Under the pieces are notes generated by a model. The model worked only from the letters and a program-made list of their open reading frames with translations. It did no database searches and was not told where the DNA came from. Below, piece by piece: positions 14,297 through 57,565 of a stretch of 64,000 nt of DNA. The stretch covers positions 446,810 through 510,809 of the forward strand of contig KL197731.1 of the NCBI GenBank assembly GCA_000697665.1, given 5' to 3'. The DNA is from Jaapia argillacea MUCL 33604. Its lineage: Eukaryota > Basidiomycota > Agaricomycetes > Jaapiales > Jaapiaceae. The number at the start of each line of letters is the position of its first letter. The first letter of the stretch is position 1. Position numbers and translations under genes: made by a program.

Positions 14297-14472
14297 GGAG
14301 AATTAACAGGTACAGGATGAGGTTTCTGTTCCTTGTCTTATATATCAAGAAGGAAGTGATGTCATATGGGAGCTATTTGTGTTTCTTGAGTAGCATGTGA
14401 TATTTCATGTGATCAGTAGTATGACTGTCTGCAATGAGTTTAGACAGGATAATCAATTAAGGGAAGACCATA

Positions 14473-25641: not shown

Positions 25642-25649
25642 CAGTCCCT

Positions 25650-27882: not shown

Positions 27883-28860
27883 ATTCTCCATCCAATGCAT
27901 CTATTGACTCTATGAGTTCCTTGGAAGTGTCCACGAATCAGGTAACATTTTCCAGCTGGAGCTTCATGATCTTGTGGAGAGCATTTGTTGTGGTGCCATC
28001 GGTCATTTTGGGAGAAATGGGAGGAATGGAGATGGCTGAGGCATGGAAGAGCAGCCAAGAGGGACGCAAGTGTGTGGAGGATGAGAGTGGGAGGCCCAAC
28101 CTTCTGTAAGCTCTCGCCAAGATGAGTTGTAATGAAGCTCCTCCACTGACTATAATTGACATTAAATATATGAATGTGACGAATCAAGCAAGCAACTCAC
28201 ATAGTCTGACTGGGACTCAACATCAAATCCCATGAGTTCCAATTCCCACAGAAAGGCATTTTACCCAGCAATGGGCGAGAACCATTCTGCTGGAGGAAGT
28301 CAGGAACCCTCCCAGCGATGACCCAGTCCATTGAAGCCTCCTAGAAATAACTCATGAACTCAGAATATTGTCAGGGGACCAAGAATTACTCACCAACATG
28401 CCTGTAGCCATCATCAGCTTGTGGACGCTGTCCCTGAGATTGGGTTGATCCCACCAAAACGGCAGTTGGAGATACTGAATAGAATCTGGACAGGTGAACG
28501 GTTCAATTGCAAGAACTGAGGAGATAGATTCCCAGCTGATCAGGACATTGAGGTTGCTTGGCATGTCATAGGAGAAAAAGAAAGCGTAGACTTCATCTTG
28601 ACAGGCCGTACCCCATACCACATTTCCCAAAGTCTTTAACGCCAAAATCCATGTAAATGGCGAATGTGGGGAAGACGTACCAACTCCAATCTCATACCCA
28701 AAACCCAGCAAGCCCTGATCTCCTCATCCAAACAACCCTGTGGATGGAGGAGAACATAGGTTCGGATTGCTCTATGCAATCGATCGGTGAGGGAGTTGAA
28801 AACCTGGGGAGTTGGAATAGTCCGTACAAGGTCTTCAGATGATCACCTTCTGTGGGGGGA
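27763..28860 (-). pseudogene. unknown family, copy 2
   Basis: A diverged paralogue of the 24.5-25.6 kb gene with the same exon design. An upstream exon (about 28860-28700) reads VFNSLTDRLHRAIRTYVLL. The next has LKTLGNVVWGTACQDEVYAF, matching LGNILWGEAA in copy 1, and ends in GM before a GTGAGT donor exactly as copy 1 does. The next exon begins MDWVIAGRVPDFLQQNGS, matching WVIETHVPEF of copy 1, and also ends at a GTGAGT donor. The last part lies in the right arm of the inverted repeat and ends IPEAPHIDP, close to the IIPQAPHS end of copy 1. The stretch between about 28160 and 27900 does not give one clean frame, so I call it a pseudogene. Function unknown. Confidence 0.5.
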
Positions 28861-29100
28861 ATGATCTTCTCCAGAATCTTTATGCAGAGGGGTCACATCT
28901 TCACCAAGTGAGTCATTGGATTCACAAGTCTGAGATCCATTATGCCAAGGTGTGAAGAATCTGCTGGAGAGTGATGCAACTGCTGACAAGTGATGCAAAG
29001 TTGCCTTGCTGAGATTTGAAAAGCCGGCCTGATCGCCAGATGATCAAGACAGCAAACGATCATTTCAACAATTGAACAAATCATCATTGTATCTATCTAT
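28861..29100. other. short flank between unknown gene and KDZ transposase
   Basis: No gene is seen. A short CTAT tandem run (TATCTATCTATCTATAC, about 29089-29106) overlaps the stop region of the transposase. Confidence 0.4.
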
Positions 29101-32100: not shown

Positions 32101-33008
32101 ATCATCCTCCTCATCCTCCCAAATCTCATGCTCATCACCATCCCCCTCCTCATCCTCTAGGAATGGATCATCCTCGTCCGGTGCATCTTCTACGTTGCTT
32201 GGCGAGAAGTGCCAATGCTGGATGGTGCTGGTGAACTGGGAGGATTGAACTGGAGGATGGAATGGAAACAGGATCAACGTTGCAATTTGATTCTAAGTCA
32301 TCAGACGTGTGGCCATCCCCCTGCCCGTCAGCAGGGTATGGAAGAAACTCTGGCGATTGAAGGCCAACCTGTTCCCTGGTGGTCTGGGTAGTTTGCAGAT
32401 AAGTGTTTCCTGGACATTCTCCCCCTCCATGTCCAAGATGAATGCAAACCCCAACCTGCCAAAGCCAACTGGTAGAGAAGTGATCGTCCTTCCAAATCTC
32501 CACCCGATGGAAGGGATGCGACATTTGAGCATCCCTGCAGCAATCTGGGCAGAACAGTGGATGACCAAAGCACTGCAGACATTGCCACAATCCAGGCTCA
32601 CCACAGTGATGGCAGCAGCCATCTAAGGGACATGCTTCTCCAGACAGCAGAGTATGGAGGAAGATGGGGGCCTTCTTCCATTCTCTCGTCATATCATTTG
32701 GAGTCTGTTCAAAACATCCTTGTCAGTCATCTCAGCCATCACATGCAACGCCATACCTTCTGTGTGCTTGACAGCAAGGAAGGGATAGGATCCATCTGCG
32801 CTGCATCGTGTTGCAAAGAGTCCTCTCTTGATTGCCAGTCCCGTGAAGGGGTGCCCCATCCCGATTTACTAGGGCTAACCATCCCATCATCGTCAGTTCC
32901 CTGCACCAACACCGTTTTCCACCTTGTAGCACCCTTCACCATCCTTTTTCTCGTTATCTTCTTTAATGGGGCCTTGCCAGTGAATCTGATGCCCTTTTGA
33001 CAAGCCAT
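29101..33008 (-). pseudogene. KDZ transposase 1 with CxC2 cysteine cluster
   Basis: A DNA transposase of the KDZ class. It starts at 33008 (MACQKGIRFTGKAPLKK); a 52-base intron leads to TPNDMTREWKKAPIF. The CxC2-type zinc cluster follows (CPLDGCCHHCGEPG, CLQCFGHPLFCPDCC). Next come FTIVNVSGIHEVVVHFCNC, CAACPQPGINLP and the first catalytic motif NLDGNMKAEQM of the RNase H fold (near 31430), then NLQVTGIGAAACGDTGL. The second acidic position reads LYNINCQF where the family has YDIxCQ, so a catalytic Asp is Asn (G-to-A). The third is kept (GEVIETLW). The C-terminal helical part (ALKRLAKQELCLRKGQAND, 29779-30294) and the final exon (29101-29709, WQEELTFIINEMDW) are present. A frameshift lies near 31155. 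It probably cuts and pastes DNA when whole; this copy looks dead. Several upstream genes may be its cargo. Confidence 0.88.
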
Positions 33009-33059
33009 GGTAGATAGAGGGAAATTGAAAATAGCCAGAGAACAGAGAGGTTGGCAGAA

Positions 33060-34570
33060 GCTTGATTCAATGGCGCTTGACAAGGTGAAGACTAACTACT
33101 GCTACTACTCCTGGCGTGGCAGTAATGGTCAGTATCTCGATGAACTGGTGTTTCCCTGTTTGATATGTCTGCAATGCTGGTGTAGACCAACAACCAATCA
33201 ATATCCATCCCATCCGCCAACAAGGCTTCTCGACCCCTGCGACCATATGCATATGGTCAAGGATGAATGACCCTCAGTATCACGTTCATGATGGCCATTG
33301 AATGGATTGTGTCATTCAACCATTGATCCACACCCAAATGGCGGGCTTTTGCATTCAACATCGCCGAGACACCGAGCGAACTCACTGGACCCTTAAGAAC
33401 TCGACTTGTCACCAGACAACATAGGCATGGAAACTTGCAAAACATACCTGATGACCGAGTTGAAACCAAGCCAGGCTGAAGTTGAGGACCCCAGGCATGA
33501 CCTCATACTGACTGGCGGGAGCTTTGAAGCACGCTGGGTTGTTTTGCCAGCTTCCACACTTCCCTGGGACTTGAGGTTTTCCAGAAGTCCCAATGAGTGG
33601 ATTCAGGCTCGAAGCAGTGCGAAACATAGCCATCTTTTGCTATGAGATGTGCCAAAAACAAGGAGTGAGACAGGAAACATACCTGCCAAGACCAGCAGAG
33701 GAGTGAGGGAAGCTGCCACATCAGCACCATGCCAGTGAAGTTGACAATCACAAAAGGGTCCTTGCAAATGGGGAGATCACTGGTAAACAGTGGGGAAATA
33801 GGGCTTCCATCCCCTCTTCTTTCTTTCGATTCATCCCTGTCTGCCTGCTGGATCCAGCGTGTACTTGTGGCCACTCCAATCAAGGGAGACTTGAGAGGAT
33901 CAGGAATTATCCAGCAGCTTAGAAATGAAACTCACTGGGGTGAGTGAATGCCTCATAGATGACACTGGCCATCCATTGGCATTCACCAACGATTGAGGCA
34001 GGCAGCACTGGTAATGCAGGGTACAGCGATAATTGGGGCTCAAGCTTGCACAAGAAAAGATGGTAAAGATATTCAGCGACCTGAGCTTCGAATGCCATTG
34101 CAGAGTGAAAATGAGCAAGGTTGGGTGGAGTCATGGATGTAATGGAGTAAAAGGTTTGATGAGAGACACAAGAGGTTTTGCCGACGCAGGAACTATTGAG
34201 AGCTTGTTGCAAGATTTGATGGCGATTTGAGATGAAGTTTCCAGGCGATTCATTGTCGATTTCAACTTCATATCCAGCAATCTGGAAACCAGGGAATAGT
34301 TTTGTGTCCTTTTGACCAGATGCATTCGATATGGTGCATTCCTGCAACAGTGACCTGTCAAATTTGCGTGGGACCATCCATCAAGGCATCAACTTTGTGT
34401 CTGGCAATGAGACATGAATTTAATTCAGGTGTGCTTTTGTGAAGGCTAAGCAGCCATGGTGTATTCCAAGAAACACAAATGTCAAGGCCGAAGCCAGCTG
34501 AAAGTACATAGGTATTCGTGGACCATTTTCGCACTGGCCTGTCCACATGTGTTTGCGTGAGTTTGGCCAT
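33060..34570 (-). pseudogene. dioxygenase-like unknown protein, C-terminus cut off
   Basis: Starts at 34570 (MAKLTQTHVDRPV). Readable exons include LSAGFGLDICVSWNTPWLL, IAGYEVEIDNESPGNFI, LYHLFLCKLEPQLSLYP and ECQWMASVIYEAF, then DPFVIVNFTGMVLMWQLP, PGVLNFSLAWFQLGH and SMAIMNVILRVIHP, joined by GTGAGT and GTATGT introns. It then reaches ISNRETPVHRDT (HRD at about 33142-33134). The His-x-Asp in this setting is the look of the iron-binding pair of 2-oxoglutarate/Fe(II) dioxygenases of the double-stranded beta-helix fold, related in layout to TET/JBP enzymes. That assignment is inference. The expected distal histidine and arginine are absent because coding stops about 100 bases later, just before the KDZ transposase start at 33008. 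The transposon edge probably lies here. Stops and frame changes between exons suggest a pseudogene. Confidence 0.5.
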
Positions 34571-35305
34571 TCCTTAAATGAAGGTCAACACTCAATTTAC
34601 CTCTTGTCAACATTCTGCTCCTAACACAGCAAGATTACTTCATCATTTCCCAACAATAAGGAAGGACTTGTAGATAGCAACAGGCATCAAGGCCTCAGTT
34701 GAAGACCCCCAGCTGCATCGTGCGATGAGGTGTCCACAATTGATTGCGAGTTCCACCCTGCTTCACACTTATCGTGCACCGAAGTGTCCACATTTGATTG
34801 TGAGTTCCACCCTTCTTGCTCGCCCCATTTTTTAGTCCTTCGACCCCAAAATTATCTATGGTGGAATGAAAGGAAGCGGCACTATCCCTTTGATTCAATT
34901 GTTTTCGTCACTGAGCTTCAAATACTTAAAGTCCAGGCTTCAAATACTTAAAGTCCAGGCTTCAAGTGATTGAAGTCCAGGTTTGTGCCAATGTTGCCCT
35001 TTGACCTTTGTGCTTCCGGAAAGTGATTGAAGCCTCCCTGAAGTGGGTGTCTCAATTGTCTCTAGTAATTCTGACGTCCCCACAATAGCTTTCATAGGTG
35101 AACTCCATACATTGTCACCTGAGGAGCCTTTGCATTGATCGCAAGGAACTGGTATTCGATGGCATCGACCTGACCCGAGTCCTGCCTATCTGGATACCTG
35201 TGTGAACTCCAAATCTTCAGCTATGGGCCTGTCTGTTTGTCAACCATCGGCTAACCTTGTGTCTTCCATATTCATTTCTCCCCCTCTACTCTTTCACCAC
35301 GTATT
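34571..35305. promoter_or_regulatory. divergent intergenic region with short direct repeats
   Basis: Lies between the dioxygenase-like gene (-) and the HMG-like gene (+). It contains two copies of a block of about 50 bases with GTGTCCACA(A/T)TTGATTG (34731-34770 and 34781-34820), and two to three copies of a 23-base unit around CTTCAAATACTTAAAGTCC (about 34916-34985). These repeats are candidates for protein-binding or transposase-binding sites; no direct evidence. Confidence 0.4.
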
Positions 35306-38300
35306 ATGGCACGCAAACGGCGCACCAAAGGTCTCAGGAGGAATCCACATGCTCTGGGGTACTCTCTTACCGCCCAGGACATTGAGGTGGTCAATACTTT
35401 CCTCCCCTGCTACGAGACAGTTGAGTGACACGAATGTGTTGGTGTCTTGGCTGATGCTTCTGATGCTGTTCTGGACATTCACAATGGACTCGCTGAGCTC
35501 TCTGATGATGAGAGAGACGAAATCATCTCTGTGAGTCCTTAATTCACTCTGAACCGGACCCTTTGCAATCTGTTACACTTCTTCCAGGCTGTTCACAGCC
35601 ACATCATGCAAGAAAGGCCTGGAACCATGAGTGACATGATGGGATTCTTCTTCAGGGATTGGAATTTAAAGTATGTGGTCGAGTATGAGAGGAGGGAAGA
35701 CATTCGGCATAGGATTGCCAAGACTGTTGGGCTTGGGGTAAAGGGAAACGACAAGCTGGCTTTTGCCTGCTATCAGACCATCATCAGTGAGATAATGAAG
35801 GAGCTGACTGACAAGGAAAGGCGGGGGTATACTATTCAGGCAGAAAAGTGGAACCAGATTGGAGCTCCAACCTTGGTGAAATCTCAGTGAGCTTGTCAAT
35901 CTCCACTTTCAAGTCTGACTCATGAGTTGTTCCATACAGAACTGCCAAGAGCAGAGCTCACAAGATCATGTCCACCTTCACCAATCGCTGCCAGGAAAAG
36001 CTTGCTATGGAAGTCATGATACTCTACTCCTACCATACGCCTGCCAGGGAGGTTGAGGTGTTCATGTAAGTTCTTTGCCGGGACTCTGCATATCCATTCT
36101 GAGAGGTTGTAGGGCCAAGACCGAAACGGAGGTCAAGCTCAGCAAAATGTTTCCCAAATTCATCACCCACAATTGTAAACCTTTCAGGGAGTACTGTCAG
36201 ATCGCAATTGGTGCGTGGATCTACATCACCGAGACAGTTGTCCTGACAGATTCAAAGATGGCAAAGTCAATCTCATTCCACCAGGAATGGGCGGTCGCAA
36301 CAAAAAATGTCCAGACAATGTTCAACTTGCTCACAACCCTGAGGGCTGTCCAGTCATTCTGGCGGAGCTTGGGAAAGGACAAGGTCGCCTGGCAGTGATC
36401 CTTTGGGACTACCTAAACATGATATGGGGTGAGAGTATTCATGTTATTGGCCGAATCAAGCCAACCATCTGATGCTGTTCCCCGGCAGCCTTGGCAATGG
36501 GAAACGAAGGAGAGTCCATGCCTTGGGCGAAACTGACCTGAGACCCATAGATGTACATTGATGAGACGTGGTTACCTAGCAGCAGAAAAATCACAGATCC
36601 CTCAAAGATGCATTACAAGGATCTCAAGGAGATGTTGGAAAAGATCAGGGACACTCCCAGCAACAAGCTCGACTTCAGAGTCGGCAGGAACACCAGGAAG
36701 GTGGAGAAGCAAATGAGAACTCGAGGTAGGAGGAAGAAGGTGAAGGTGAAGGATCAGGTGGTCCAACCCACCGAGTCTGACAGAGTTGATGACCTGTCTG
36801 AGACTCTGGAGAAGTTCCAAGGTGAGTAGCTCCTGTGATATGCCGTACTCTGGACTTAACTTGCTGTAGATTGTAAGGCAAAACAATCCAAGGCTAGAAG
36901 CAGGAAGCAAAAGCCTGACCTCTGATCCGATACAGATGAAACAGATTGGGAGTTGGCCCAAAATGGGAGTGGAGATGATGAAAACAGTGAGAACGACTTC
37001 TCTCCCCAACTGACAATAATGTGACTGCATCTTGTACAGGCCAGGAGCCAACTAGGAGCCAGGGAAAGAAGAAACGTCAGGCTGCCGTCCAGGATGTCAT
37101 TGGTGAGTAGTCTCCACTCTTTTCCCTCCATTCAGCTGACAGCAGAATCCCACTGACTAGAGGTGGGAATGACATCGAAGGCGAAAGGGAAGATGAAAGT
37201 ACAAGAGGATCCATACAATTCAGAACACATGGATTGGGAACTTTGCTGTCATGGAAGTCCTGATAAGGGTAAGTCTCGATTACTCCCCTGAACATGCTTG
37301 GGACATTGATGATTTCTGAAGATAAGAGGAATGCCAAGTGTCAAGGCAAGAGAAAGGAAATTGTGGCTATGTTCAGCGACATAGACTCAGATGTGTCTGC
37401 CCCTGCAAACAAGAAAGCCCAACCTCTCCCAGGTAAGTGGTTCATCATTGCTCCTCCCCCTCGTTATATAATGCCCAGTGTAGTTAAAAAGACACCTGCA
37501 GGGATGTCAAAGATGGACAAGGGTACGTGAGAATCATTGCCAGGGATAATGTTGCTCTATTCACATCCAGATTAGGGAAAGCGAAGCAGAGGTCAACCCC
37601 TCAGATGGCATTGGTCAATGACTCACTGGGAACAGGTATATTTCATCAGAAAGATTGATTGACATCTCACTGACTGTGATCAGAACCAGACAAGGGCAAA
37701 CAACCCATTAGGTTTCCTTCTGATGAAGGTAAATCAGCTCAACTCCACAAATATACAACGTAATTTGATCCACCACAGATTCGCCAAGTGAAGTCCCATC
37801 CGTAAAGCCAGAAGGTCGAATATCCTGCCGGGCACTCATCGAGAGTTCGGAGGAGTCCAAGGGTGAACCAGGTATGTGTATGTAATCATTTTTCATGTGC
37901 TTCCACTCATACGTGGACGTCAAGCTATGCCTGGTGCTACCCCTGTTAACAGAGTCATCCCTCACCCAAAACCCTGTCCTCTGGCCAACTCAGCCATGGT
38001 GAGACAGTTGAAGGAGGAAGCTGGTAAGACGCGTCTTCAACATCATTCTGCGACGACCACCTCAACATTCATATCTATCGCAGATAATGCTACCAGTCAA
38101 GCTCAGGAAAATGGGGAAGCAGGTGAGGGACTCGCTCAATTCTCACCAGAGCCTTGACCTAATGATGGCTTCAGTCTCCATCCCAGCTTTGCTGACTCCA
38201 GAGCCAGGTCTGATGTTTTTCCTCCAATGCAATGGAGGATTTTGGCTAACGCGACTTCAGAGTCCATGAAGTCTTTGATGAGAGTCCCGTGTACAACATT

Positions 38301-43033: not shown

Positions 43034-43345
43034 AATACATCGTGTGGAATGTGCTAGGTTATGAAACCAAAGTCTGTTGATACCTAGTCTAGCGGTACCT
43101 GCAATTCGCCAAGATACAACACTGACTCGCTGAATAACGATTATCCATGACACAAGGTTTGTTCACCTCACAAATGCTGTGAAACGCAATACATCATGTG
43201 GAATGTGCTAAGTTATGAAACCAAAGTCTGTCAATACCTAGTCTAGCGGTACCTGCGATTTGCCGAGATACAACACTGACTTGCCGAATAATGATTATCC
43301 ATGACAGAAGGCTTGTTCACCTCACAAACGATGTGAAACGCAGTA
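43034..43345. repeat. tandem duplication, 155-base unit
   Basis: Two direct copies start with AATACATC(G/A)TGTGGAATG at 43034 and 43189 and share CTAGTCTAGCGGTACCTGC and GATACAACACTGACT. A third, weaker partial copy (GATACAACTGTGACTCGCCG) follows near 43391. No coding frame is shared. Confidence 0.85.
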
Positions 43346-43519
43346 CCACTCTGAAAGCCATTTTGACCATTAATGCGTGCGCTTCGCTGAGATACAACTG
43401 TGACTCGCCGAATGATCACATTGCATGACTGAGCTCTCATTGACCCCACAAAGCCCTCTGGTTCCATAGAAGCCATAACCAGCCCAGCAGTGCCACCAGG
43501 CATTCTGCAGGAACCATTT

Positions 43520-44060
43520 GGCTAACCAGCAGCCGACGCATTACTAACCCACCATCGGCCAACACATTACCATCCAGGGTCGGTTGACAGGTTACTAACC
43601 CAATGTTTCATCGTCAGCTGGCAAGCTATCATCGAACAATATGCTACCTACCCAATCCCATTTAATAGCTACCCGAAAACTATATACTTACTCATTGGTC
43701 AATGGGTTACTAACCCAGAGCCCCTCATTGGCAGCTCCTTTAACAACCTGCTTCCTGATATCGGCCGACACATTACCATCCAGCGTCGGTTGACAGGTTA
43801 CTAACCCAATATTTCATCGTCAGCCAGTGAGCTATTATCGAACAATAATATACCTACCCAATCCCACTTAATAGCAGCCTGGAAACTATATACTTACTCG
43901 TCGGTCAATAGGTTACTAACCCAGAGCCCCTCATCAGCTGCTCCTTTAGCAACCAGATACCTGACATCAGCCGACACATTACCATCCAGTGTCGGCTGAC
44001 AGGTTACCAACCACTGTCGGCCAATGTCGGTTGACTTGTTAACATGGGGTATTATGTTCG
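43520..44060. repeat. tandem array, about 206-base unit
   Basis: About two and a half direct copies. The marker ACATTACCATCCAG recurs at 43564, 43770 and 43977, and GGTTACTAACCCAGAGCCCC and CTATATACTTACTC recur in step. A shorter inner motif (GGTTACTAACCCA) occurs several times per unit. Repeat boundaries are approximate. Confidence 0.85.
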
Positions 44061-44660: not shown

Positions 44661-45178
44661 GGCTTTTTTCTGTAGATTTCATCAATTGGGTTTGATAAAG
44701 GTGTTCAATTATAGACTCACAAATTGTTGAAGGGCCAAATGAGGCAATATTCCATGGAGAAACTCAAAATCACCCATTTGTATAACTGCAAGGACAAGTG
44801 CAAGATTCGCAGTCCCTTAGATTAAATCTGACCCCTTTGTTCCAGGGAGGGTGGATTAAACTTTCCCAGCTATTAGATCAATCTCAAGCCAGTAGCTGAC
44901 TGATTTTTGAACGAATTAATCGAAGTAGTCTTGCTAGATACCATCACTGTGAGTGAGACGGTGCAGAATCGGATTGTTGGTGATAATCCACCCAATGGAT
45001 TGAATCTCGTTGTTCCATCTGAGTTTCGAATGGGATCAGAATCAAGTCAAGAAATGTGAGACAATCTGATTCAGTGCCTTTGGATTAACAGCCCTACCAA
45101 ATTGTAATCCAACCAAATCAAAAATCCAACCAAAGGAAAAGATCCAACCGAACCAAAAAAATCCAACCGAACCAAAAA
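44661..45178. other. no gene seen; ATCCAACC-rich sequence before gap
   Basis: Contains scattered GATTAAATC/GGATTAAACT words and ends in a simple repeat of AATCCAACCGAACCAAA running into the gap. Similar GATTAATCC/GATTAAATCC words occur at 56640-57000. Confidence 0.4.
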
Positions 45179-45516
45179 NNNNNNNNNNNNNNNNNNNNNN
45201 NNNNNNNNNNNNNNNNNNNNNNNNNNNNNNNNNNNNNNNNNNNNNNNNNNNNNNNNNNNNNNNNNNNNNNNNNNNNNNNNNNNNNNNNNNNNNNNNNNNN
45301 NNNNNNNNNNNNNNNNNNNNNNNNNNNNNNNNNNNNNNNNNNNNNNNNNNNNNNNNNNNNNNNNNNNNNNNNNNNNNNNNNNNNNNNNNNNNNNNNNNNN
45401 NNNNNNNNNNNNNNNNNNNNNNNNNNNNNNNNNNNNNNNNNNNNNNNNNNNNNNNNNNNNNNNNNNNNNNNNNNNNNNNNNNNNNNNNNNNNNNNNNNNN
45501 NNNNNNNNNNNNNNNN
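45179..45516. other. assembly gap (338 N)
   Basis: An unbroken run of N, preceded by a simple repeat, which probably caused the gap. The last exon of the neighbouring transposase may extend into it. Confidence 0.99.
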
Positions 45517-45561
45517 GGAAACGGTCAATGGGGGGTAGTTTTTAGCTAAGTGAATGAAACT

Positions 45562-48500
45562 TCACTCACCGATGTCACCGATCTCGGAGTCCATCTCAAC
45601 GTCTGTGGCTGTCATCCCTTCCAAGCAGTCCTGTGCCATCCGCTCATACATCCACGATTGCTTCAACGCATATGCTTTCTTCCCGTGGTTGAGTAACGTT
45701 GAATGGTCTGGGCTTTCTGCAAGCCGCTGCCAAACCACTTGCCACTGAAGGAGCGACCTATATGTATGACGGAGTTCTTCTTCTAGCATCTCAACCTCCT
45801 CGACCCAGCGATCCCGATCTGCACATCGGCGGAACCATTGAACTCAAGATACTGTAGTTGTATAAGTAAATGATGGCCATCCACACTCAAGATTGAACAC
45901 ACCTTCTCTGCTCCAGTCTGAGCCATTAGAGATCAATCCAGACCCAACGCCCACTGACCAGTACCACAGCTCTGGTTGGCTTCCGGCACCAAGTTTGTGG
46001 GCGATATGCTGACTATGCATCCACAGGTCTTTTAGATCGAGTCGTCTTAGCGAGGTGCCGTCCGTTTTGTCGAGTTCATGTTTGACCAGTCCGAGGTTGA
46101 CCAGAGCTCACCATGCTTTGTTATAGTGGTCGGCGCAACATTCACACTCTCAATGAAGACCTGCTAAAGCCTTTGTCGCCCGTGTATTTTGCTTCTGCCC
46201 ACGAATATTCTTCCGCTTCTCCAATGCGTTGAATGTCTTGGCTTGCATGGCTTCTCTGACTTCTTGTAGCAGCTGGTGAGCTTGAGCGATGAGTAGCTCG
46301 CCTTCTTGCTTAGCAGCGACGTCAAGTCCAAACTGAGCCCGTTTTGAAGGGTCACAGAAGTGGGAGGGCAGATAGAGTGGTTCCTTCTTGGGCTCATCGC
46401 CCTTTAGTCGCATCTTGAGGATCGGTCGCATGGCAGGGTACTGCTTCACTTGATACTGATGGAGGAGAGCAATGTCGTCCCTGAGCTGAGATCGAGGAGC
46501 CTCTAGAGAGATGGGTTCCTCGCTGTTATCCTTCGACAGATGTCGAATTCATACCCTAGGAAATGGGTCAGAGTTGGTATGACAGGAGCAAATAGTTCTC
46601 GTTACGCACTGCTCCATTTCAACAGTCAGAGCCTTATTTAAAAACGCAGCCATCGTCGAGAAGATTGGTAGTTCATGGACCGAGACGAGGGGTGCTTGGT
46701 TCTTCACCTCCAATTGGCGTACTCGTTGTAGTACCTGGTCCTGGGTCAATACTACGGTTGCATCAGGATCAGTTCAGTTCCAATTTCAGAATCGAGGCGA
46801 CTTACCTGTTGCAATGTTCGGTCGGTACACACTAGCCATCCCAGTAGTCTCCTTTGGGCTCAAAAGGGAACCCATATCATCATCAAGCCTTGCCTCCTCT
46901 TCTCTCCACAAAGCAAGGCCGTCCAGGTTGGTTTGTGATAGGAGTTTGTCGTGACCCTCGCATACGGCAATGAACATCTCCCATTTTATCCAGGCTTTCA
47001 GCAATGCTTTCCCCAAGACAACCGCTGAAGAGCATCATTAGCGAAGGACAATAAGTTCACAGAAGAGATACTTATGTCCTTCCTGATTTTTTCGAAAAAC
47101 ACCCATCGCATGGTTGTCAGAGAGGGTGTCATGTCGATGACCCTCGTTCATCTCCTGAGTACTTCCTCGTAACTCCTTGCCAGCCACCCAGAGGGTTTCA
47201 ATCTTCTCACCATGGGTTCGACCAACACACTTCGCGTAATTCAATGAGAATGAATATTGACAGTCATCTTTATGTCCGTAGAGATGCATCTTGGGGACGA
47301 GGATCCGTATTACATGCTTCCAGAGCTCTGCATCGTCAGGCCACTCTTCGAAAACCCTCTTGATGAAGTTGATACAGTACTGGCAACCAATGTCGTAGGT
47401 CAAGAGAATCCAGAGCAGATCCTTCCTGTCTTGTAGAGCATTGATGATCACATAGTTGGTATTGGTATAACTAGATGGAGAACGGTATCAACCCCTGAGC
47501 CATGATGAGAATAAAGTACTCACCGCTCCCCACGCTGAAGGTCGACCATGCTGGAGGGGAAAAAGCAGCCATGCCAACAGCAGACACCGACAACGCCAGT
47601 GACGACCATCCCTTTGAGTTTCTTCTTGTTTTGCATAATGACTGCCTTCAGCTTGGAGCAGGTGCTCTTCTGTAAAAGGTGGAGCAGGGGACAGTCAGAT
47701 CGGAAATGGTACTTCAAAAAGTGTGAACTCACCTCCACATCATGGTTGTGTGCCCCTTTCTTTGCCTTCCTTGCTAAGTACTCCTGGAATGGTTCCTCCT
47801 TTACAAACATGCCATCGCCATTGAATAAAGAGATGTCGTTGGGATCACCGTTTTTTCCATCCTTGCGAGTCAGAGTGTGATTTCCATTGGCATGGATGGT
47901 GAGCATGTGGATATGGCTGTAGAAGAAACGAACCCAATTAGTCGTGGTGTACAAAGATGGGCTGGACCAAATACTCACCGCTTATTGAGAGGCGTATTCT
48001 CCCAGTTTAGCAGCATGTTGAAGTGGGGCTCGGGACAGGCATAGCATCTTGGTACAAGCGAGCCTTTCTTACAGTGTGGGAGAACATCATCAATGCCATG
48101 GATGTGACCAGAGTGTTTGCGGTGCATGAGGTATCTCCAGATACAAATGACACAAAGTAGTTCGTGATATCGCTCCTGATTTGCGAGTATTCAGTTTTGA
48201 GATCAGCGCTGTAGAAGGCAACACCTTACCGGAACTGAAGCTGGGAATGCATTGTTTGATAGATGCTTGAGAACGATGAAGTAATCATATGCTGTGACCT
48301 TCGATTGGAGAGTTGAGAGATGGAAGTGGTTGAGGAGCGAAAATGTGAAAACCGTAGAAGGCTGCTTGAGTGTGGCTGGGAAGTAATGAGCTCTTAGGAG
48401 CTGTTGGTGAAAGGGGAGATGCCCAGCGCAGTGGCAAGGAACTACTTCTCGACGGTGGACCCCATTGGTGTGGACGACAACAACAGAGATACCTGCATCC

Positions 48501-49277
48501 TTCTTTGGCCGATGTGAGCAGAGGTCCCCTCCATGACCTAACCCGATCACCAAACCCAACTCGTCAAGCCCCCTACGCTCAAAAAAGGAACCGTTCCACT
48601 CCTCCACCCAGTGTAGCAGTGAACTCTGATGCAATTTGACTATACAAGCAGAGCACCAGTAGACACTGTTGAGACAGTCAATGCATCGGACAGTAGGTGG
48701 CTGACCGCACTGACACTTGGGTTGCAAGGGCTGGTACGCATCGCACTCGAGTAGAAAGCCTTCAAGCTCCAGGATTGCATCGATTAGATCCTTCATTAGT
48801 ACCGACGCACCCTGTAAAATTGAATCAGCCTAACGGCCACTTGAACATGTGAGAAATACACACCTGATTGCGCTTTGGAGGGGGAATCTGAGGCGACGAG
48901 CTATCCGTAGCGCCTAGTGTGGTAGAAATCTTCTCGACAGGGGGAGTGTTGTTGATTTTCTGGCGCTTTAGATGGGGGCCGGTTATTGTCGTCATCGTCA
49001 TCTTCCAAGCGGAACCAACTGTGCTAAGACTTTGGTGGTAACCAATGTCTGCACCGCTAGCGCCAACGAAAGTCTTAACCTTGGGGCACTGGTGGGTGGC
49101 ATTCGTTTGATATGACGCCCTAGATCCAGTGTGAACGTTGACATCTGAGCTGCCAGTTCCTGCGAAAGTCTTTACATCGGGGCGTCGATGTGTGGAACCA
49201 GTTCGAGATGATGGACGACTCTCAGATCCAGGGTGATCTAATGGTCTAGAGGGATTTCTGGTAGAAGGATCTGGCAT
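45562..49277 (-). pseudogene. KDZ transposase 2, nearly complete
   Basis: A transposase gene with about ten exons; the first is 49277-48864 (MPDPSTRNPSRPLDHPG) and splices to 48812. Exon 2 has the CxC2 cluster (CQCGQPPTVRCIDCLNSVYW, then CSACIVKLH), followed by WNGSFFERRGLDELGLVIG and LGHGGDLC. Exon 3 carries CYACPEPHFNMLLNWE. Exon 4 (47916-47733) has NDISLFNGDGMFVKEEPFQ; its first acidic motif reads TIHANGNHT where relatives have D-G-N. Exon 5 has GMVVTGVVGVCCWHGCFF and MVDLQRGER. Exon 6 has the second and third catalytic motifs (LLTYDIGCQYCINF, VPKMHLYGHKDDCQY, HGEKIETLWVAG). The tail reads LYLPSHFCDPSKRAQFGLD and ends VEMLEEELRHTYRSLLQW. Two clear in-frame TGA codons (46152-46150 and 46110-46108), and perhaps a third at 46551-46549, interrupt it. 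It is divergent to the + strand TET/HMG cluster. Confidence 0.9.
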
Positions 49278-50072
49278 TGGCGGGTTTTGGACAAAGGTGA
49301 TCAGGAGGGAGAGGGTGACGGGGAGAGGACGAGGGGGAGGGTGACGAGGAGGGCTACAAGGGAGAGGGTTGCAAGTGGCATCTGTGACACTTTGGTGGTT
49401 CGGAACTCAGTGATGCCACCACATGGACCACATTTGCTTTGCCTGAGCAAAGAAAAGAAACAGATGGCTGCATGAGAGATAATTACAGTCGTAAATCTGG
49501 GTCAAAAAATCGCTCAGAAGGTGCTTGCGAAACCGACGAGCTGTTGAGAGACAATTGGAGATGAGCAAAGCCCAACTTTGCACAATTGTGCTTCTTGTTG
49601 ATATGAACAAGACTGAGACAGGCCATAGATCGAAAACAACTGAGCTGAGCAATTGGAACACTTCGGCTCTACGGGTTTGTTGAGGTGGAGGTGATTCAAA
49701 CAATAGTCTACGGCGGATGATCATTGCAATGGCTGGCCAGTGTGCAAGCAGCAAGCTCAACGCTTGTTTTCCGACTTTGAATGTTTGGCCCATCTTGGCC
49801 AGATCTTAGCTCTAGCAGATCTCAGATCCCAATCAGGCTGTGCTCATCCGTAATGCTGTCATTGACGATCGTCCTGTTCTCGGCAGCCTCCTGTACTTTG
49901 ATTGCTCCTCTCGCTGCAAGGGCTGTCTCACTAGCTTGCAGAACAATGCTCTGACCATGGGACCCCTTGATAAATACCTGTCTTTTGTTGACCTTGGCTC
50001 TCTCAACCTCAAGATCGAATTTCGCTTTACTCACGACAACTGCCCAACTGCTCACCTGCTCTTTTCCCCCCT
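49278..50072. promoter_or_regulatory. divergent intergenic region of the KDZ-TET cassette
   Basis: About 0.8 kb between the transposase start (-) and the unknown gene (+). It includes a purine-rich tract (49300-49375, GGGAGAGGGTGACG-like words) just upstream of the transposase. Two opposing short frames (49407-49793 and 49822-50055, both minus) and one plus frame (49840-50060) exist; none can be preferred. Promoters of both arms must lie here. Confidence 0.4.
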
Positions 50073-51177
50073 ATGGCTCCTTACACTGCTCCTGCTGTCG
50101 AAGAATTACTTTCTGAATGGCTGTCGACCCATGTCAAGCGTCTTTGTGAAGAGACTGCAGCACTCTATCCTGGCAAGCCGCCCTCTTACGACGCACGTGC
50201 TAAGCAGTGGAGGATTACAGGCAGATGTGGCAGGATGCATCAGGTCTACATCAATCGTGGGATTCACAATCCATCCGACCTTGGTGCTGTGATGGAACAT
50301 GTAGGCATCGAGCTGCAGTCTCATGCTCTGCAACGACTGACCTGTCTCCTGCAGTGCACTGATGGTTGTTGCAAGCAAAGGGCAATATATCTGGGTACAC
50401 GTCTAGAACGGGACACTCTCCAAAGTATCCAGGTTCAATTTAGGGAAGAGAACGCCGCCAAGGCTATACAGAGGGCGAGGGAGAAGAGGAGGCCTACGGG
50501 AGGGTTGCACAGGGTACCCTTGGGTGAGTGACGACTTTCTATAAACACCCTGTTTCGTCGTTGACAAAGGTGCCTGTTCAGACCGTAAAGTAGCTCTGAA
50601 TGCCTCCATCGTCCAGAACGCAGGACGTCAACTGCCTTGTCAACAGGTGGCTCCTCCTCCACAACATCCTTGCCCATTTCCTTGTCCGTCACCACTGTTG
50701 GAGCCACAGGCTGGCCCCTCATCTTCTCAACTGTCATCATTACCCTTGTCCTCTCAATCATCGTTGTTACCCTCGTCCTCTCAACCTTCATCGCAGCCCT
50801 CGTCCTCTCAGCCATCGACGCTACCCCTATCCTCTCTGTCCTCACCCTCATCGAAACCTCCTGCGTTGCACAAGAGAAAGAGGGTCACCAACTTCGACGG
50901 GATGGACGTTCTAGAGATATTTAGCGACAATGATGAAGTCCCAGTGAAGAAGAAGCCGTTTTATGGCTCAAATGTGCAGTACAGTTTGGATATTCAGAGC
51001 GACGGCAAAGGTTCCGGGTTGTCAAAGAGGAAGGGAAAGGAGAGGGCGCCTGTTGATCCAGCTATCTCTCCTGAGAGGTATGAGTTGAGGTACGACGTTG
51101 ACAACGACACTGACGAGTTGGTCGAGATTGAAGACTCAGAGGTCGTTGGTTCACCGTCAAGGTCGTCTGCTTGTTAG
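50073..51177 (+). CDS. intact two-exon unknown gene in the KDZ-TET cassette
   Basis: Exons 50073-50523 and 50582-51177 join in frame through a 58-base GTGAGT...TTCAG intron, giving a predicted 348 residues with no internal stop. The N-terminal 140 residues form a compact, helical, Cys-containing region (EELLSEWLSTHVKRLCEET, ITGRCGRMHQVYINRG, TCLLQCTDGCCKQRAIYLG) ending in a basic helix (AIQRAREKRRPT). The second exon encodes a Ser/Pro/Gln linker, then KPPALHKRKRVTNFDG, a nuclear-localisation-like stretch, and an acidic C terminus (DNDTDELVEIEDSEVVG). I recognise no domain. Its place between transposase and TET/JBP genes makes it a candidate element-encoded cofactor acting in the nucleus. It is the only gene of this cluster with no visible break, which may mean it is younger or selected. 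Confidence 0.75.
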
Positions 51178-51683
51178 TAACGTTGCCCACATCTTTTGTT
51201 GATAGAGTCCTTCAGGATAGAATTGCCTGGTTGTTATCTTTCCAAGCTCATCTTTCTCTCTTTCTGTATGGTTATTGCTGTGTAGTTTATCCCCACTAAT
51301 GTACAACTTCAGTCAACTTCAGGTGCTCTCAAATATTCAACCCTCCAGACTTGAAATGAATTTATATTGCTCCATCCCAGAATGTACTTGTTGTGCAACT
51401 ACCTAAGGATGAACCACTGAATGTATCTCACAACGAATGGCAAGGAACAGTGAATGTGCAGTGCTTGGTGGTTGATGGGGCTTTAGGTTAGGGGCTGGAT
51501 GGCTACACGAAACAGATACAATAACTTAAACACAGAACAAATGTGTCGCGTCCACAATCCACGCATACACAATCAACGCGTCCACAATCAACGCGTCCTA
51601 CAATCAACAAACTCACGTGTAGCAAAAGTATAAGTAGGGTGTCCTCACCGTCTTCAATCCACATCCTCCAAGCGGACTCGAAC
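51178..51683. other. intergenic region
   Basis: No gene is seen. A short direct repeat of an ACGCGTCC(A/T)ACAATCA unit (with CACGCATACACAATC variants) occurs three to four times at 51549-51605, about 80-130 bases before the TET/JBP start; it could be a promoter element. Confidence 0.45.
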
Positions 51684-53430
51684 ATGGGCAACACTGGTGA
51701 GTGTCTTCTGCTATCTGCCGTCACAGAGCTCCTTGTTTAGCTGGATGTGGACCCGACCCTGGAGACCACGGAAGGCAAGGCTTGGAAGCTCTCAGCGCAT
51801 CGACAATTGCTCCTACCCCATCTGCTTGTCTAACTTCTTGTCTACCTTTCAGATGGCCCAGCATCCCCCTTGTTGGCTTGCGTTGTAAGTCGTCTCAGTT
51901 GCTTAATGTTTCTTTTGTTTTTGTTCTTATCTTATCTTATCTATAGCTCCGATCGGGTAAAGAGTTCTTGCCTTGGACTCTTGCCTCCATTGGCATCCCA
52001 GTCAAAATCGATTTCCAAAGCATGGTCAACCGTGCCTGTCATGCAGACCTCGTCACAGACCTCTTCAAAACGGCTCATGAAGACAGCCCAACTCCCAGCC
52101 CATCTGTTGAACCCAGACCTGCTGAAGCCAGTATCCCTCCACCGAACCTTCTGCAGGATGATGGCGAGCTCACCACCCACCCTTCGTACCTTCCCATCCA
52201 ACACCAGCACCTCTCTCTGGAGAAGAGGCGCAGCCGAAACAAAAGGGACAAGAAACACATAGCTGCCCAAGCTGTTGAAGACACCAACCTGAAGGTCATC
52301 ATATACAGGTGTCGAGGGAAGGCAAAGAAGGTGTCCACGAATCTCAAGACCAGCGACCTTTTGGTGGAAGGGTGAAGCTGAAGGGCATACTCGCTGGATG
52401 AAATGAAGAGGATGGGTTTTTCGGTGGTTGCTTGGGATGGAGTGTGAGTGATATCAGCCCTCTCTACAGCTTCGAATCTCAACGGTATTGGTTTCAGAGA
52501 GCCACATGCTGTTTTGGACTGTGGGTCAACCGTTGTCACCATGCTTGCAGGACGCCCTTGCGATGGGCAATTCATTGAGCAGGTGGCTAACCCTCTGTTC
52601 AAGGCTATGTAGTGTACTTGCGAACATTGCTCTATGTCCAGCCTGAAGCACCAGCGTGGCCATTTTGCTGCCACAAACGTTGGGATCTCTCGCAGACTGG
52701 GTTCAACGGTGCACTTCATCCTCCCTCTCACAAACCGCGTTCTAAACACCATTTGTAGGAGCCTCAAACACTGCAAGTTGATCCCAAAAACCAACTTGCA
52801 ATTGCAGAACTACTTAGTGAGCTGTCTCTACAGCGTTTAGTTGGGTTCACTGCCAGTAAGTCGCACCCTTCTACTTCATTATCGAAGCCTTGACTCAACG
52901 CCTTAGGTGCCTTCAACCTCTATGCTCCTTGACTTTATCAATGCTACCAAACCACCCTGGACTCGCTTCTCCAATGGAAACCAACCCTTCGCCCGTACCT
53001 TGCCAATTCACCCTTCGCCGCATGTACGTTCAACTTCGGTCCCGACGTCCGGACTTTTGTCCATACAGACCCAAAGAACCTACCTTGGGGTTGGTGCGTC
53101 GTCACTGCCCTTGGTTCCTTTGACCCCAAGCGAGGTGGCCACCTTGTCCTATGGGATTTGAAGCTTGTTGTTGAGTTTCCACCTGGGTCAACTATCTTCA
53201 TTCCTTCAGCCATTATCCAACATTCGAATATCCCAGTTGCAGAGGGTGAGGTATGGCTATCGTACACCCAGTATACTGCTGGCAGTGTTTTTCGCTGGGT
53301 CAACTACAGTTTTAGATCCGTTGGAGAGGTTGTGAGCATGCTTGGAGAGGCTGAAGTTCACCATTTGAACGCTGGTCGATGGGAGGCAGGGTGCCAGATG
53401 TGGTCTAAGCTTGGGGATTTTTTTGAGTAG
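51684..53430 (+). pseudogene. TET/JBP family 2-oxoglutarate/Fe(II) dioxygenase
   Basis: A nucleic-acid methylpyrimidine oxidase (5-methylcytosine to hydroxymethylcytosine and beyond in active members). The start MGNT splices to APCLAGCGPDPGDHGRQGLE. A linker follows with SMVNRACHADLVTDLF and a basic KRRSRNKRDKKH. Then AYSLDEMKRMGFSVVAWDG, a phase-2 intron (52445-52498), and VLDCGSTVVTMLAGRPCDG. After the intron at 52856-52906 comes the catalytic core: ACTFNFGPDVRTFVHTDP, LPWGWCVVTALGSFDP, RGGHLVLWDLKLVVEFPPG, IIQHSNIPVAEGE and QYTAGSVFRWVNYSF. The iron ligands His-x-Asp (53062-53070), distal His (53221-53223) and the 2-oxoglutarate Arg (53293-53295) are all kept. In-frame stops break the reading upstream of the core: TGA 52373-52375 and 52379-52381, TAG 52610-52612 and TGA 52930-52932. 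An alternative intron could skip the first two. It is probably a recent pseudogene. Confidence 0.9.
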
Positions 53431-54021
53431 CATCATAGTTTGGCTACTCCCATTTTGTGGAGCTTTGTAACAACTGAACATAGATTCTAATGCAAGTGAG
53501 TCCACAAACTGGGCTGCCTTCCTGGGACGGCAGGCACTGATGCGCCAGTACTGCAGTACACTTTGATCAAATTTGCATGTCTTACCTGCTCATGCCTTCG
53601 ATTGGATTCGCCAACCCATGATTACAATGACGCCTGCTGAAGCCGCTCTTGCAGGGTACTGAGCACCTAAATCAATCAAACAATTGCAGTCTGAAACACC
53701 TTTCTTCCAAGCAAACGGTTGGATTGTAACGGCCACAACAAGCTTTGCCATCCCCATGCCTTCGTTTTGGCCATCGCTCGGGCCCATGACCAAAGCAATT
53801 GGCTTGGGCCTTTGGTGGCACAAAACAGACAAAAACGAGCCCTATTGTTCGCTTGGTCTAAGCGTGAAGGTCAGAGTGAAAGCAAAATGTGGACCTTCCG
53901 ATTCTTGTTTCCCCTCTCTTATATGAACTCACTGCATCACTGTCGAATCCATTTGCCAACCCTCAACACAACCCCTGCTTTCCCAACCTACCCCAGCTTT
54001 CTGCCCACCCCATCACCAGCC
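53431..54021. other. intergenic region between TET/JBP and HMG-like genes
   Basis: About 590 bases. Two opposing 80-codon frames overlap at 53590-53926 (Trp- and Gly-rich on one strand). Neither has splice or domain support. The region should hold the TET/JBP terminator and the promoter of the next gene. Confidence 0.4.
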
Positions 54022-56389
54022 ATGCCCAGCGCCACTGCACTCCCTCCCTGACCCCCTCCAAAAGTAGTCAACTACAACGCCAAACTCCTTCCAACCATCT
54101 TGCTGCGCAAGGGGGTTGCGAAAGAATGGCTTCTTGCCAACCTTCCCCAATACATGACGCTGACAGACCACGGCCAGAAGTCTGACTATGCTCGAGAGCA
54201 GGCCGACTGGTTCATCATTGCCTTTCAACTTGAGCCAAAGCAGTTGGAGGACGGCACGGTCTTTGACCCTATGGAGGGACAGGCAATAATTATGTCACAG
54301 CTACGAAGTGTACATTGTTCCTAACCTTCTCTCGCCTGCCTACTTACAAACTACTTTCAAACTCTACAGGCAATAGCCCTTTGGTACAAAAACACTTTAG
54401 CTCAAGCATCAGCACCTCGACGAGGCCTTGCAGCAAAAGGCCTTCTCAAACTCTCTGTTCCCAAGGAGAAGCGTATCACGCCCCTCTCGATCTTCTCAGA
54501 GGAGAAGGCTTTGGAGCTGAGGGCAGACATGCATGCTCGCTTGCATTTGCACGGTGTTCAAGGCGACACTCAGCAAAACCTGCCGCATTGGAACGCTGCC
54601 CTCCAGTCGCAGTGGGACCGGCTCACTCACGAGGAGAAGGAAGAGTACGAGAAAAAGGCAGAGGTACTTCATTCGAGGAAGGCGTCGAAGGGAGAGCCCA
54701 TTGATGACGTTCAGATTCATTGGTTTGTTTCTCGCCCTTTCGTTCTTTTCCTAGGTCATTGATGCTTTCATTTCCAGCAACCAAGACCAGCTTGGGAAGG
54801 ACCTTTGAGACTTCCTATGGACACTTCCAGGCAGATGCAAGGGTCAGTTCGGGGACGTCGTCTTTCACGTTCAATTAGCTTTCCGGAATCGTGGAGACGT
54901 GCTTGTGGTCAAGACATATGGACCCTTTCTTAGAACCCGTTTCTCAGTGGTTGCTGACCTTATGCTTTTGTCTAGATTTGTTGCTGGGCCAGGGTGTGAA
55001 GACCCGCCTTTTGACAAAACTGAGTCCTATCCACAAATGGTGGACTCCTTTACTGTTTGGGCTGCTGCTGCCATCCCTAGTACATGTCTCATCGACTTCG
55101 CCCAGCCCAATCTAATCTGTTTCTGCATATTAGAACAAGTAAACGCCGACAGAAATGGAGAAGATGAACCTCTTCAGGTGACCGTTGATGAGAGTGGCCA
55201 CACCCATCTCCCTAACCTGGATTTCGACTTGGTGACAAACAAGCACTTTGCGAATTTGCTTGTAGCCTATTTCGACATCGAGTGGGGTAAGTTTTTGAGA
55301 CCACGCTGTGTTTTACATTCTGATGCTGTTTTTAGAGAAATCACTTCCCAACGATCCTCTGTACCCAACCATTCCTTGGGAGGAAGTCAAACAATCACCG
55401 CTGAGTTATATAACACCAGTGGTTGATGATTCAATCACTCAGCTTTTCAAGCACCCAAGCAAATTGGGTAGAAACGTTCAGGACCTGTACAAGTACATTT
55501 ACAACAACGCCACCCAGCAGATCCGTCTTCAGCACCCACAACCTCCCTCTCCAGCCCTTCCAGCCCTTCCGTCAACCCCACAATGCAGTCACCCATCCTC
55601 TCCTGGGGACCCACTCCTCTTGTCCCCTGACTTCGCAACCAAAGGGCTTCTGTCTTCGCCAATGACTCCCACTCCCTCTACACCCCAAGCAACCTCCACA
55701 GGTGCTGCCTCGACCTCTGGAGGTATTCCTGCCGCTCCTACTGATGATCAGCTCAACAATCAGAATGGCAGTGGCTCCATATCTGCCTTAGATGGATGTC
55801 CAGTTCATGCAAAACTGAATTCTGCCAAAGCCGACTCGATCTTAGCGGATGTTGCTCCTACCACTAAACCGCTGGACGCTTTGAATAGTGGTGGCTCTAC
55901 ATCTGCCCGTCTTGATCATGCCACCCTTCCCTCACTGCCAGATGCTTTCAAATCAGCTGATGGCCCCCAGACCTTGATGCAGGAGGTTGGGCGAATGACG
56001 AGGAGCAGGAAGCAAAAGGAGGGTGAGTTTGTTGGTGACGATGGAGGTAGTAAGCAAGGGCCGATGAAGAAAACACAATTGACTGCTCCGCAATCATTGG
56101 AGACAGCAGGAGAGCCTTTGCAAGCAGTGACAACAGGGCGTGTGAGAAGGTGCACAAGTCTCTAGCAACGTTCATCCATTTGGATTACTGATTGAAGCTC
56201 GGAGCAGACCTCGAGGAGCAGTGCCACCAGCTGGGAATGAGGATGTTGTTGAAGTAGTTGTCAGGCAAGTAACCCTCTTCCAACACCATTCTCTTGTTGA
56301 GTGAAGGTTACTAACCCAAATTACAATGTAGATCCAAAGGAGCGAAAAGGGGGAAGCGTTCTGGAGGTAAGAGAGGAGGGGGGCAGTAA
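54022..56389 (+). pseudogene. HMG-like protein of the KDZ-TET cassette
   Basis: Starts MPSATALPP; an in-frame TGA follows at once (54049-54051). The reading then runs NYNAKLLPTILLRK, YAREQADWFIIAFQLEP and MEGQ. An unusual intron with a GC-AATAAT donor leads to AIALWYKNTLAQASAPRRG. The HMG-like part is FSEEKALELRADMHARL, LPHWNAALQSQWDRLT and HEEKEEYEKKAEVL. After a 57-base intron comes NQDQLGKDL, a second TGA (about 54808), LPGRCKGQFGDVVFHVQLAF, DFDLVTNKHFANLLVAYF, then a Pro/Ser-rich tail from 55500 with TRSRKQKEG and a final basic exon (AKRGKRSGGKRGGGQ, stop near 56389). Diverged HMG proteins accompany KDZ-TET elements in basidiomycetes and presumably bind DNA. It is the last gene of the cassette. 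Confidence 0.7.
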
Positions 56390-57565
56390 TTTGGACGCCA
56401 CTGACTCCGACTGTCACTGTCGCAGATATCTTTCACATGTATAATGAGTTATGGAATTCTATCTATTTTTTCTTCCATCCAGGATGTGGACAACAAGACC
56501 ACCCCCTTCATATGGGCTCGATGAGATGCATGGGTTCATGCTGCCCAAGTTTAGTTTGAGCTGATTTATGTGGCAGATCGGATTCTCAAAGGAAAATCCG
56601 ATCTACTTGGTACAAACAATCTTTTCTATCTAGTTGACTTAATGCTCTCCAAGGCGAGCCTCGAGTTGGGTTCTCTCTGGATTCTCTTGATCTGAATTCA
56701 AACTTCCTGGATTTAATCTGACAATTTGGATTCCCTTGGATTAGGTTGCTTGAAATCCTCTGTTGTTCGGAATCGGTACGTGAATTGAGATCAGATATAT
56801 AGAAATACATAGAAGGATTAATCTGAAGTCTTTGTACTGATCCAATCCAGCGTGGAACTCGGATTAATCTCAAAACTGGATTAAATCCCAAACCCCGATT
56901 AATCCAAGCTCCCCGCCCCTTGGCCATTCCACAATGCCCCCTCCCCACCTTTTCTGCCTCAGCTTAGTTTAATCCTAGGGGGCCTGAAAGTGACGGAAAA
57001 TATTAATCCAATCTACTGACATCCCTGACAAGTGAGAATTGTAGTTAGATAGGTCTAGGATTACTTACAAGGTTCCTGATCTTTTAACTGACATCAAATT
57101 TGATGTTGATCTTGAATTTTTTTCACGGTTTCATCTCTGGGATTTTTAGATTGAACAGTCTTCTCATGAAGTTGACTATGATATGTGTGTCCTCCGGTGC
57201 TGTGGATTCCAGTAGCCTTGACCATAATCCCTTGTTGAGGTATATTTTGCTTGACATTTTCATTTTGACTGGATGTTTGAAAATTAGCTTCTAGTATATA
57301 TAAAAGGAAAAGTAGATGGTACTGAATAATTCAATGGCAGCTTTCATTTGAGTTTCCACCATCGTTGAATTTAGACTGCTGAAGCTTTGATGTAAAGATG
57401 GAAGATTGTATATAATTGTCCCAAACTGAATTGATCATGAATGAGTAGTATGCATGAGTCAGTAGAAAACACATACCACTTTATCCCAAGAGGGACATTG
57501 ATGTTCTTGTGAGTCCTTCTCCCACATCACAATTGTCCATGGTACTTTTTCACTGTCCTTTTCAT
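56390..57565. other. no gene; repeat-like AT-rich sequence
   Basis: From 56640 to 57000 many GATTAATC/GGATTAAAT words occur, resembling 44.8-45.1 kb on the other side of the KDZ-TET cassette. 57000-57560 holds only short frames. Confidence 0.4.

Follow-up and report, generated by a model that had tools for sequence, protein, structure and literature searches.

Genes for a KDZ transposase, a TET/JBP protein and a divergent HMG protein are reportedly carried together, as Iyer et al. are said to have laid out in PNAS in 2014. TET-bearing DNA transposons of the Kyakuja (KDZ) kind were described by Kojima (2025; PMC12730594), where self-demethylation is proposed, not validated; according to that article, these elements unite a KDZ transposase gene with an oxygenase gene, generate a 7-bp target-site duplication and have CA..TG termini. 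As for the enzyme itself, CcTet of Coprinopsis cinerea, which belongs to the AG type, is reported to bind its cofactor through Arg385, whose change to alanine abolishes activity, while Gly331 and Asp337 have been tied to 5-methylcytosine (5mC) and N6-methyladenine (6mA) (PMC11040006). Here, we analyzed a 64,000-nucleotide stretch of the Jaapia argillacea genome (the window), in which a KDZ transposase gene on the minus strand is followed, divergently and on the plus strand, by a gene for a 348-residue protein (the fourth gene), a TET/JBP-like oxygenase gene and an HMG-like gene. This layout, proposed in an earlier note on the same DNA, was confirmed. We read the locus, with a probability of roughly 0.55, as a decayed, low-copy, four-gene transposon of the KDZ group whose accessory protein, while the element was active, would have guided the oxygenase to the element's ends against silencing.

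The locus resembles the elements of Kojima in its KDZ transposase and oxygenase genes, its 7-bp duplication and its CA..TG termini, and differs from them in an oxygenase that the residue at the Asp337 position sets apart from the AG type, in its divergent gene order and in its extra protein (PMC12730594). The main text of that article mentions neither HMG nor 'divergent', and our literature search found no report joining Kyakuja or a KDZ transposase with HMG in basidiomycetes. What is already described is thus the TET-bearing KDZ transposon and its proposed escape from silencing (PMC12730594), the latter an older idea; what this locus may add is a targeting partner.

A mobile unit with defined ends and terminal motif arrays

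The window belongs to contig C23 in an assembly of 43.7 Mb and 95 contigs; other C labels denote contigs of the same genome, and all counts of genome matches are lower bounds. Locus comparisons covered 20 stretches around genes of the window's oxygenase type (termed type B; 11 places, including weak fragments on C9 and C13 and a partial copy on C17), four loci with tandem gene order, three short stretches and short loci returned by the searches.

Alignment revealed a left border common to the window element and an internally deleted copy on C17, and a right border common to the window element, C56 and C80. The window copy starts with CAAGATT, ends with CATCCCTG and is bracketed by a perfect 7-bp duplication, ACAAGTG (Table 1). 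The unit of 45562-56389 proposed earlier proved too small, and it was indeed outside the 45.5- and 56.5-kb marks, where the earlier note had suggested searching for terminal inverted repeats (TIRs) and target-site duplications, that the duplication was found. The relative on C80 retains both ends and measures 13,948 bp, of which 1,686 are N of an internal gap; its flanks agree at six of seven bases (AAGGACG/AAGGACA). Its TIR matches at 24 of 28 positions, as against 16 of 28 in the window element. In this the family departs from Kyakuja-1_LB and Kyakuja-2_LB, which are described without TIRs (PMC12730594), although TIRs in KDZ elements are not new, since a study of Marasmius oreades reports characterizing a TIR motif of KDZ and Plavaka elements (PMC8290104). 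Judged by its 7-bp duplication and CA..TG ends, the element is Kyakuja-like; the 8-bp duplication by which Zisupton/Dileera elements are recognized was not found, the window copy having one of 7 bp.

In genome-wide searches allowing up to three mismatches, the right-end pattern matched C23, C56, C80 and C14 and, in the reverse reading, also hit the left end of C80, whereas the left-end pattern matched C17, C23, C80 and C44; reversed control patterns gave no matches in the genome at the same threshold. The C14 sequence is a diverged remnant of the element's right part, and C44 is doubtful. The four-gene family is low-copy in the J. argillacea genome. When 600 bp of right flank were searched against the genome for a paralogous empty site, they matched only themselves.

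Both ends of the element carry arrays of the motif GATTAA, counted on either strand. All 14 occurrences in the window element fall inside its first 400 or last 600 bp, the readable interior having none; 10 of 11 lie in these zones in C80, and the final 600 bp of C56 contain 10. Compared with uniform placement, the clustering has a probability of ~1e-15 in the window and ~1e-10 in C80, for zones chosen after viewing the sequence. We read the arrays as putative protein-binding sites.

The four-gene order recurs in diverged copies

Exon 1 of the fourth gene matched three places in the genome, namely the window, C56 (91% identity) and C80 (34%), all of them inside such elements. At all three, C56 as assembled, the order was KDZ transposase (minus strand), fourth gene, oxygenase and HMG-like gene (plus strand), with HMG-like exons and a type B oxygenase present at each. 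On C56, a gap cuts the KDZ gene, leaving the CxC2 part in the same orientation; as the gap runs through the KDZ domain, our neighbor script scored this place as 'none', and it is counted here as divergent. In C56, moreover, 3.4 kb of inserted sequence (C56:14680-18038) separate the oxygenase gene from the HMG-like gene.

Between the window and C80, the rate of nonsynonymous substitution (dN) reached 0.12 in the KDZ gene, 0.17 in the oxygenase core and 0.19 in the HMG-like exon, at synonymous rates (dS) of 1.2-2.6, which are near saturation. Between the window and C56, the corresponding ratio of nonsynonymous to synonymous differences (pN/pS) was 0.37 for the oxygenase core and the HMG-like exon. 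Low dN despite such dS argues that these three genes were held together under constraint.

The ends, the duplication, the TIR (clear in C80), the GATTAA arrays and the recurrent order together show the cassette to be one mobile unit. It is true that the region is repeat-rich and that KDZ genes abound in this genome (71 domain matches, hand-grouped into 41 places), as a chance cluster of nested insertions would have it. Yet such a cluster is very improbable in view of the common ends, the target-site duplication, the terminal motif arrays and the same order in diverged copies, and is contradicted outright by the recurrence and common ends of the C80 and C56 copies.

The consistent four-gene layout emphasized in the earlier note recurs in all three J. 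argillacea places matched by exon 1 of the fourth gene (C56 partly assembled) but is not general to type B oxygenases. Three type B places have the divergent layout (window, C80 and C56), whereas on C24, C29 and C30 the oxygenase gene stands in tandem with KDZ; type B in itself therefore does not entail divergent order. The weak C9 fragment has an opposite-strand KDZ domain 10.8 kb away, no KDZ domain was found within 12 kb of the type B genes on C50 and C28 (C28:432096), and none accompanied the fragments on C17 and C13. The earlier note would have accepted a chance cluster had the fourth gene and the oxygenase occurred mostly away from KDZ neighbors; in this genome that does not hold for the fourth gene, and the oxygenase gives a mixed picture over its 11 places. 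The ends of the tandem elements on C24 and C29 revealed no clear CA..TG with duplication, and searches for relatives of the fourth-gene and HMG-like exons in the other loci compared returned chance-level matches at best (E ~1 and ~4.5).

The C50 oxygenase gene is open, keeps the arginine at the 2-oxoglutarate site and shows a dN/dS of ~0.17 relative to the window. It may be an active source, or else a relict or a gene that has been domesticated. The C50 gene also lends itself to the idea that the oxygenase is a passenger, picked up from the host or from a solo locus such as C50, with the KDZ, fourth and HMG-like genes alone mattering for mobility: searches for KDZ, the fourth gene and the HMG exon found no match there, homology between C50 and the window spans 51562-53443 only, and the type B gene on C28 likewise lacks a nearby KDZ domain. 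We nonetheless consider a passenger decidedly unlikely: the window, C56 and C80 all carry the oxygenase gene, which recurs in another layout on C24, C29 and C30 and has a dN/dS far under 1, and a transposon may just as well have left the C50 gene behind. The solo gene (C50:84385-86295) has an observed/expected CpG ratio of 0.90, compared to 0.58 for the window element, and there is no KDZ match on its contig.

One of four genes in the window copy shows no damage

The window transposase combines a transposase domain (PF18758, E = 1.7e-31 on 47038-47487) with a CxC cluster (CxC2, E = 2.5e-31 on 48203-48829), the two features by which KDZ membership is recognized. With C80, its core shares 83% identity; the value falls to 37% with C24 and C30 and to 31-32% with C66, C64 and C12. 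At the Asp of the motif D-G-N, which we take to be the putative catalytic residue, the window transposase has Asn; Asp is present in C80, C3 and C64, that is, in all three other sequences found by the motif search.

In the window oxygenase gene, two in-frame stops lie upstream of an open 165-residue exon, at sites where C50 is open, ruling out that the gene is intact in this copy; the C56 gene carries one stop. The HMG-like gene is present on the plus strand as the earlier note had it, albeit with one in-frame stop and a weak HMG match: its protein scores below the Pfam cut-off (HMG_box_2, E = 0.048, 14.8 bits vs 22.4), and although 31 of 37 fold matches were HMG-box entries, none was significant, the model having a predicted local distance difference test (pLDDT) score of 51.

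The fourth gene proved to be real, spliced from two exons, and is the only one of the window element's four genes free of visible damage, in line with its earlier description as intact. Its C80 counterpart carries two stops. Residues C52, H56, C95 and C99 of the protein are unchanged in all three copies, which also have in common a motif around VTxFxGMDVLEIxSDN, which we read as a putative nuclear signal with a SUMO-interaction-like motif after it. The fourth gene is the fastest-changing of the element, with a dN between the window and C80 of 0.76 for exon 1 and 0.52 for the C-terminus.

By its hallmark residues, the oxygenase falls outside the AG and PE types

The window oxygenase had been credited with all iron and 2-oxoglutarate ligands. 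This was wrong for the 2-oxoglutarate site, at which the window copy has Trp in place of Arg; H-x-D and the distal His are kept. Across seven type B sequences, H-x-D is found in six (C30 has H-V-N) and the distal His in all, while the cofactor site is Arg in five (C50, C80, C28, C29 and C30) and Trp in two (window and C24); C56 has Trp as well. Type B thus resembles CcTet in its H-x-D, its distal His and, in five of seven sequences, an Arg near the Arg385 position (following the distal His, shifted by two residues). It differs in that Gly331 and Asp337 have no type B equivalents: by spacing, all seven sequences have Asn and Cys at these positions. AG proteins are marked by Asp at the Asp337 position, 11 residues after the His of H-x-D, where type B has Cys (7/7), and PE proteins by H-x-E, where type B has H-x-D (6/7). 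These hallmark residues rule out assignment of the window oxygenase to the AG or PE type.

At the profile level, the window protein matched Pfam Tet_JBP at E = 0.011 (15.5 bits, cut-off 34.9), the best of weak matches to three of seven type B sequences, and searches of the PDB with type B found no solved relative. Profile comparison between type B and the CcTet-like type aligned H-x-D and the distal His, with E = 0.003 for one pair and a probability of 10%, which is why we call type B TET/JBP-like rather than TET.

These features leave room for a different activity. The same transposon may encode an oxygenase whose product is a hypermodified base or whose substrate is a different one, with the fourth and HMG-like proteins serving transposition through end binding, nuclear import or bending. 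The Asn and Cys residues, the distance of type B from Tet_JBP and from any solved structure, and heavy CpG decay despite the oxygenase gene (see below) would all fit. On the other hand, the metal ligands and, in most sequences, the Arg are kept in type B, the profiles align at H-x-D and the distal His with those of the CcTet-like type, and none of the element's open reading frames (ORFs) that were scanned matches a further DNA-modifying enzyme. We regard this account as possible and entertain it tentatively.

A model of targeted erasure and its weaknesses

TnpA of En/Spm and VANC of Vandal are anti-silencing factors. The window element resembles these systems in combining terminal motif arrays with an accessory protein, and by analogy alone, the fourth protein might be a fast-evolving targeting or anti-silencing factor with a similar role. 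The protein of Vandal is also mentioned by Kojima (PMC12730594). In the model that we favor, an active KDZ transposase would move the unit, the fourth or the HMG-like protein would recognize the GATTAA arrays, this array-reading protein would bring the oxygenase to the element's ends, and the oxygenase would oxidize methylated bases there, thereby countering silencing. The window copy can no longer act in this way, since three of its genes, those for the transposase, the oxygenase and the HMG-like protein, carry damage. Self-demethylation may apply to such elements, less readily so to those with type B, which lacks the CcTet residues tied to 5mC and 6mA. More specifically, type B could constitute a further class of transposon-borne TET/JBP-like oxygenases outside AG and PE, with the fourth protein reading the GATTAA arrays and directing the enzyme, amounting to targeted, self-encoded erasure; in this full form we consider the proposal rather unlikely.

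Several observations weigh against this model, most heavily the absence of the CcTet determinants and of any CpG sparing. No examined copy has all four genes open. Exon 1 of the fourth gene is little constrained (pN/pS of 0.82 between the window and C56), exon 2 being more so at 0.32. The fourth protein had no Pfam or PDB match that was significant or over a cut-off, and its single-sequence fold was uninformative (pLDDT of 40.5). Finally, CpG decay counts on both sides. That the element has been subject to it fits the model. Comparison of the window with C56 revealed differences at 318 of 513 CpG-like dinucleotides vs 75 of 7,501 other positions, and over 12 compared pairs the changed share of CpG-like sites was 59-88%; two of the three stops named above (two in the oxygenase gene, one in the HMG-like gene) are of the kind that CpG decay produces. 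Four pairs whose compared piece contains no oxygenase gene served as controls, few and small as they are: 14 of 22 CpG-like sites were changed in an inverted repeat on C9 (which may belong to a KDZ element), 15 of 21 in a C29/C30 repeat, 7 of 11 in a tandem repeat at 43554, and 15 of 16 between 13747-14670, which merely adjoins a DUF6570 ORF, and C70. These controls being equally decayed, no CpG protection is visible for oxygenase-bearing elements. Most of the compared oxygenase copies may be dead, which makes the CpG comparison weak evidence on function.

CpG decay of this sort is not new, because CpG hypermutation of repeats has been reported in Tricholoma matsutake (PMC6980582) and CpG-biased polymorphism in Heterobasidion parviporum (PMC5870257); the article of Kojima states that hypermutation was not detected in Agaricomycotina (PMC12730594).

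For a test of targeting, the family offers defined ends, subterminal arrays, two candidate DNA-binding proteins and, on C50, an open solo type B oxygenase. The scheme that sorts transposon oxygenases into three types, AG, PE and PU, may be incomplete.

Table 1 Features of the transposon copy, in window coordinates.
Feature	Position	Strand	Extent or basis
Complete transposon copy	44801..57027		12,227 bp, CA..TG termini; alignment borders vs C17 (left), C56 and C80 (right)
Left target-site duplication ACAAGTG	44794..44800		Flank comparison
Right target-site duplication ACAAGTG	57028..57034		Flank comparison
Left terminus	44801..44828	+	Imperfect inverted repeat of right end
Right terminus	57000..57027	-	End comparison and genome pattern search
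Left subterminal GATTAA motifs (4)	44820..45088	either
Right subterminal GATTAA motifs (10)	56713..57008	either
Run of N inside the element	45179..45516		Assembly gap
KDZ transposase gene	45562..49406	-	Several exons, partly delimited; CxC2 in 48203-48829, KDZ domain in 47038-47981
Fourth gene, two exons	50073..51177	+	50073-50523 and 50582-51177 (or from 50570); 348 or 352 residues, open
TET/JBP-like (type B) oxygenase gene	51562..53443	+	Extent from homology to solo copy C50; core exon 52933-53430
HMG-like gene	54052..56165	+	N-terminal exon in 54052-54324, HMG-like exon in 54325-54762, C-terminal exons in 54809-56165

Other elements in the window and the genome

Pfam Tet_JBP matched 25 places at E up to 0.001, and at 17 of them the score exceeded the cut-off; the window element is not among the 25. 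Judged by coordinates, a KDZ domain lies downstream on the same strand at 19 of these places, within 3 kb in 18 cases and at 10.5 kb in one; the other six had no KDZ domain within 12 kb, and none of the 25 was divergent. Eight of these places were inspected and four aligned. The four sequences match CcTet at the profile level (E = 2e-23), and three of them have the equivalent of Asp337. The family suggests that two gene layouts, with two types of oxygenase, can coexist in a single genome.

At 43034-44012, immediately left of the element, the window contains direct repeats in tandem, 154 and 206 bp long. Further upstream, 12001-14670 holds the DUF6570 ORF (E = 1.5e-42), which we take to be perhaps part of a Helitron, with the strongly CpG-decayed repeat beside it. 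On C9, a 386-bp inverted repeat (17554-17939 and 25317-25702, 95% identical) flanks a KDZ domain; its two arms are possibly the long terminal repeats of a KDZ element that lacks an oxygenase. A second KDZ element in the window (28638-35490) is 79-88% identical to pieces of C12:35500-42500, where a Tet_JBP gene stands in tandem with KDZ; the window copy lacks ~240 bp within the part that corresponds to the Tet_JBP domain region of C12.

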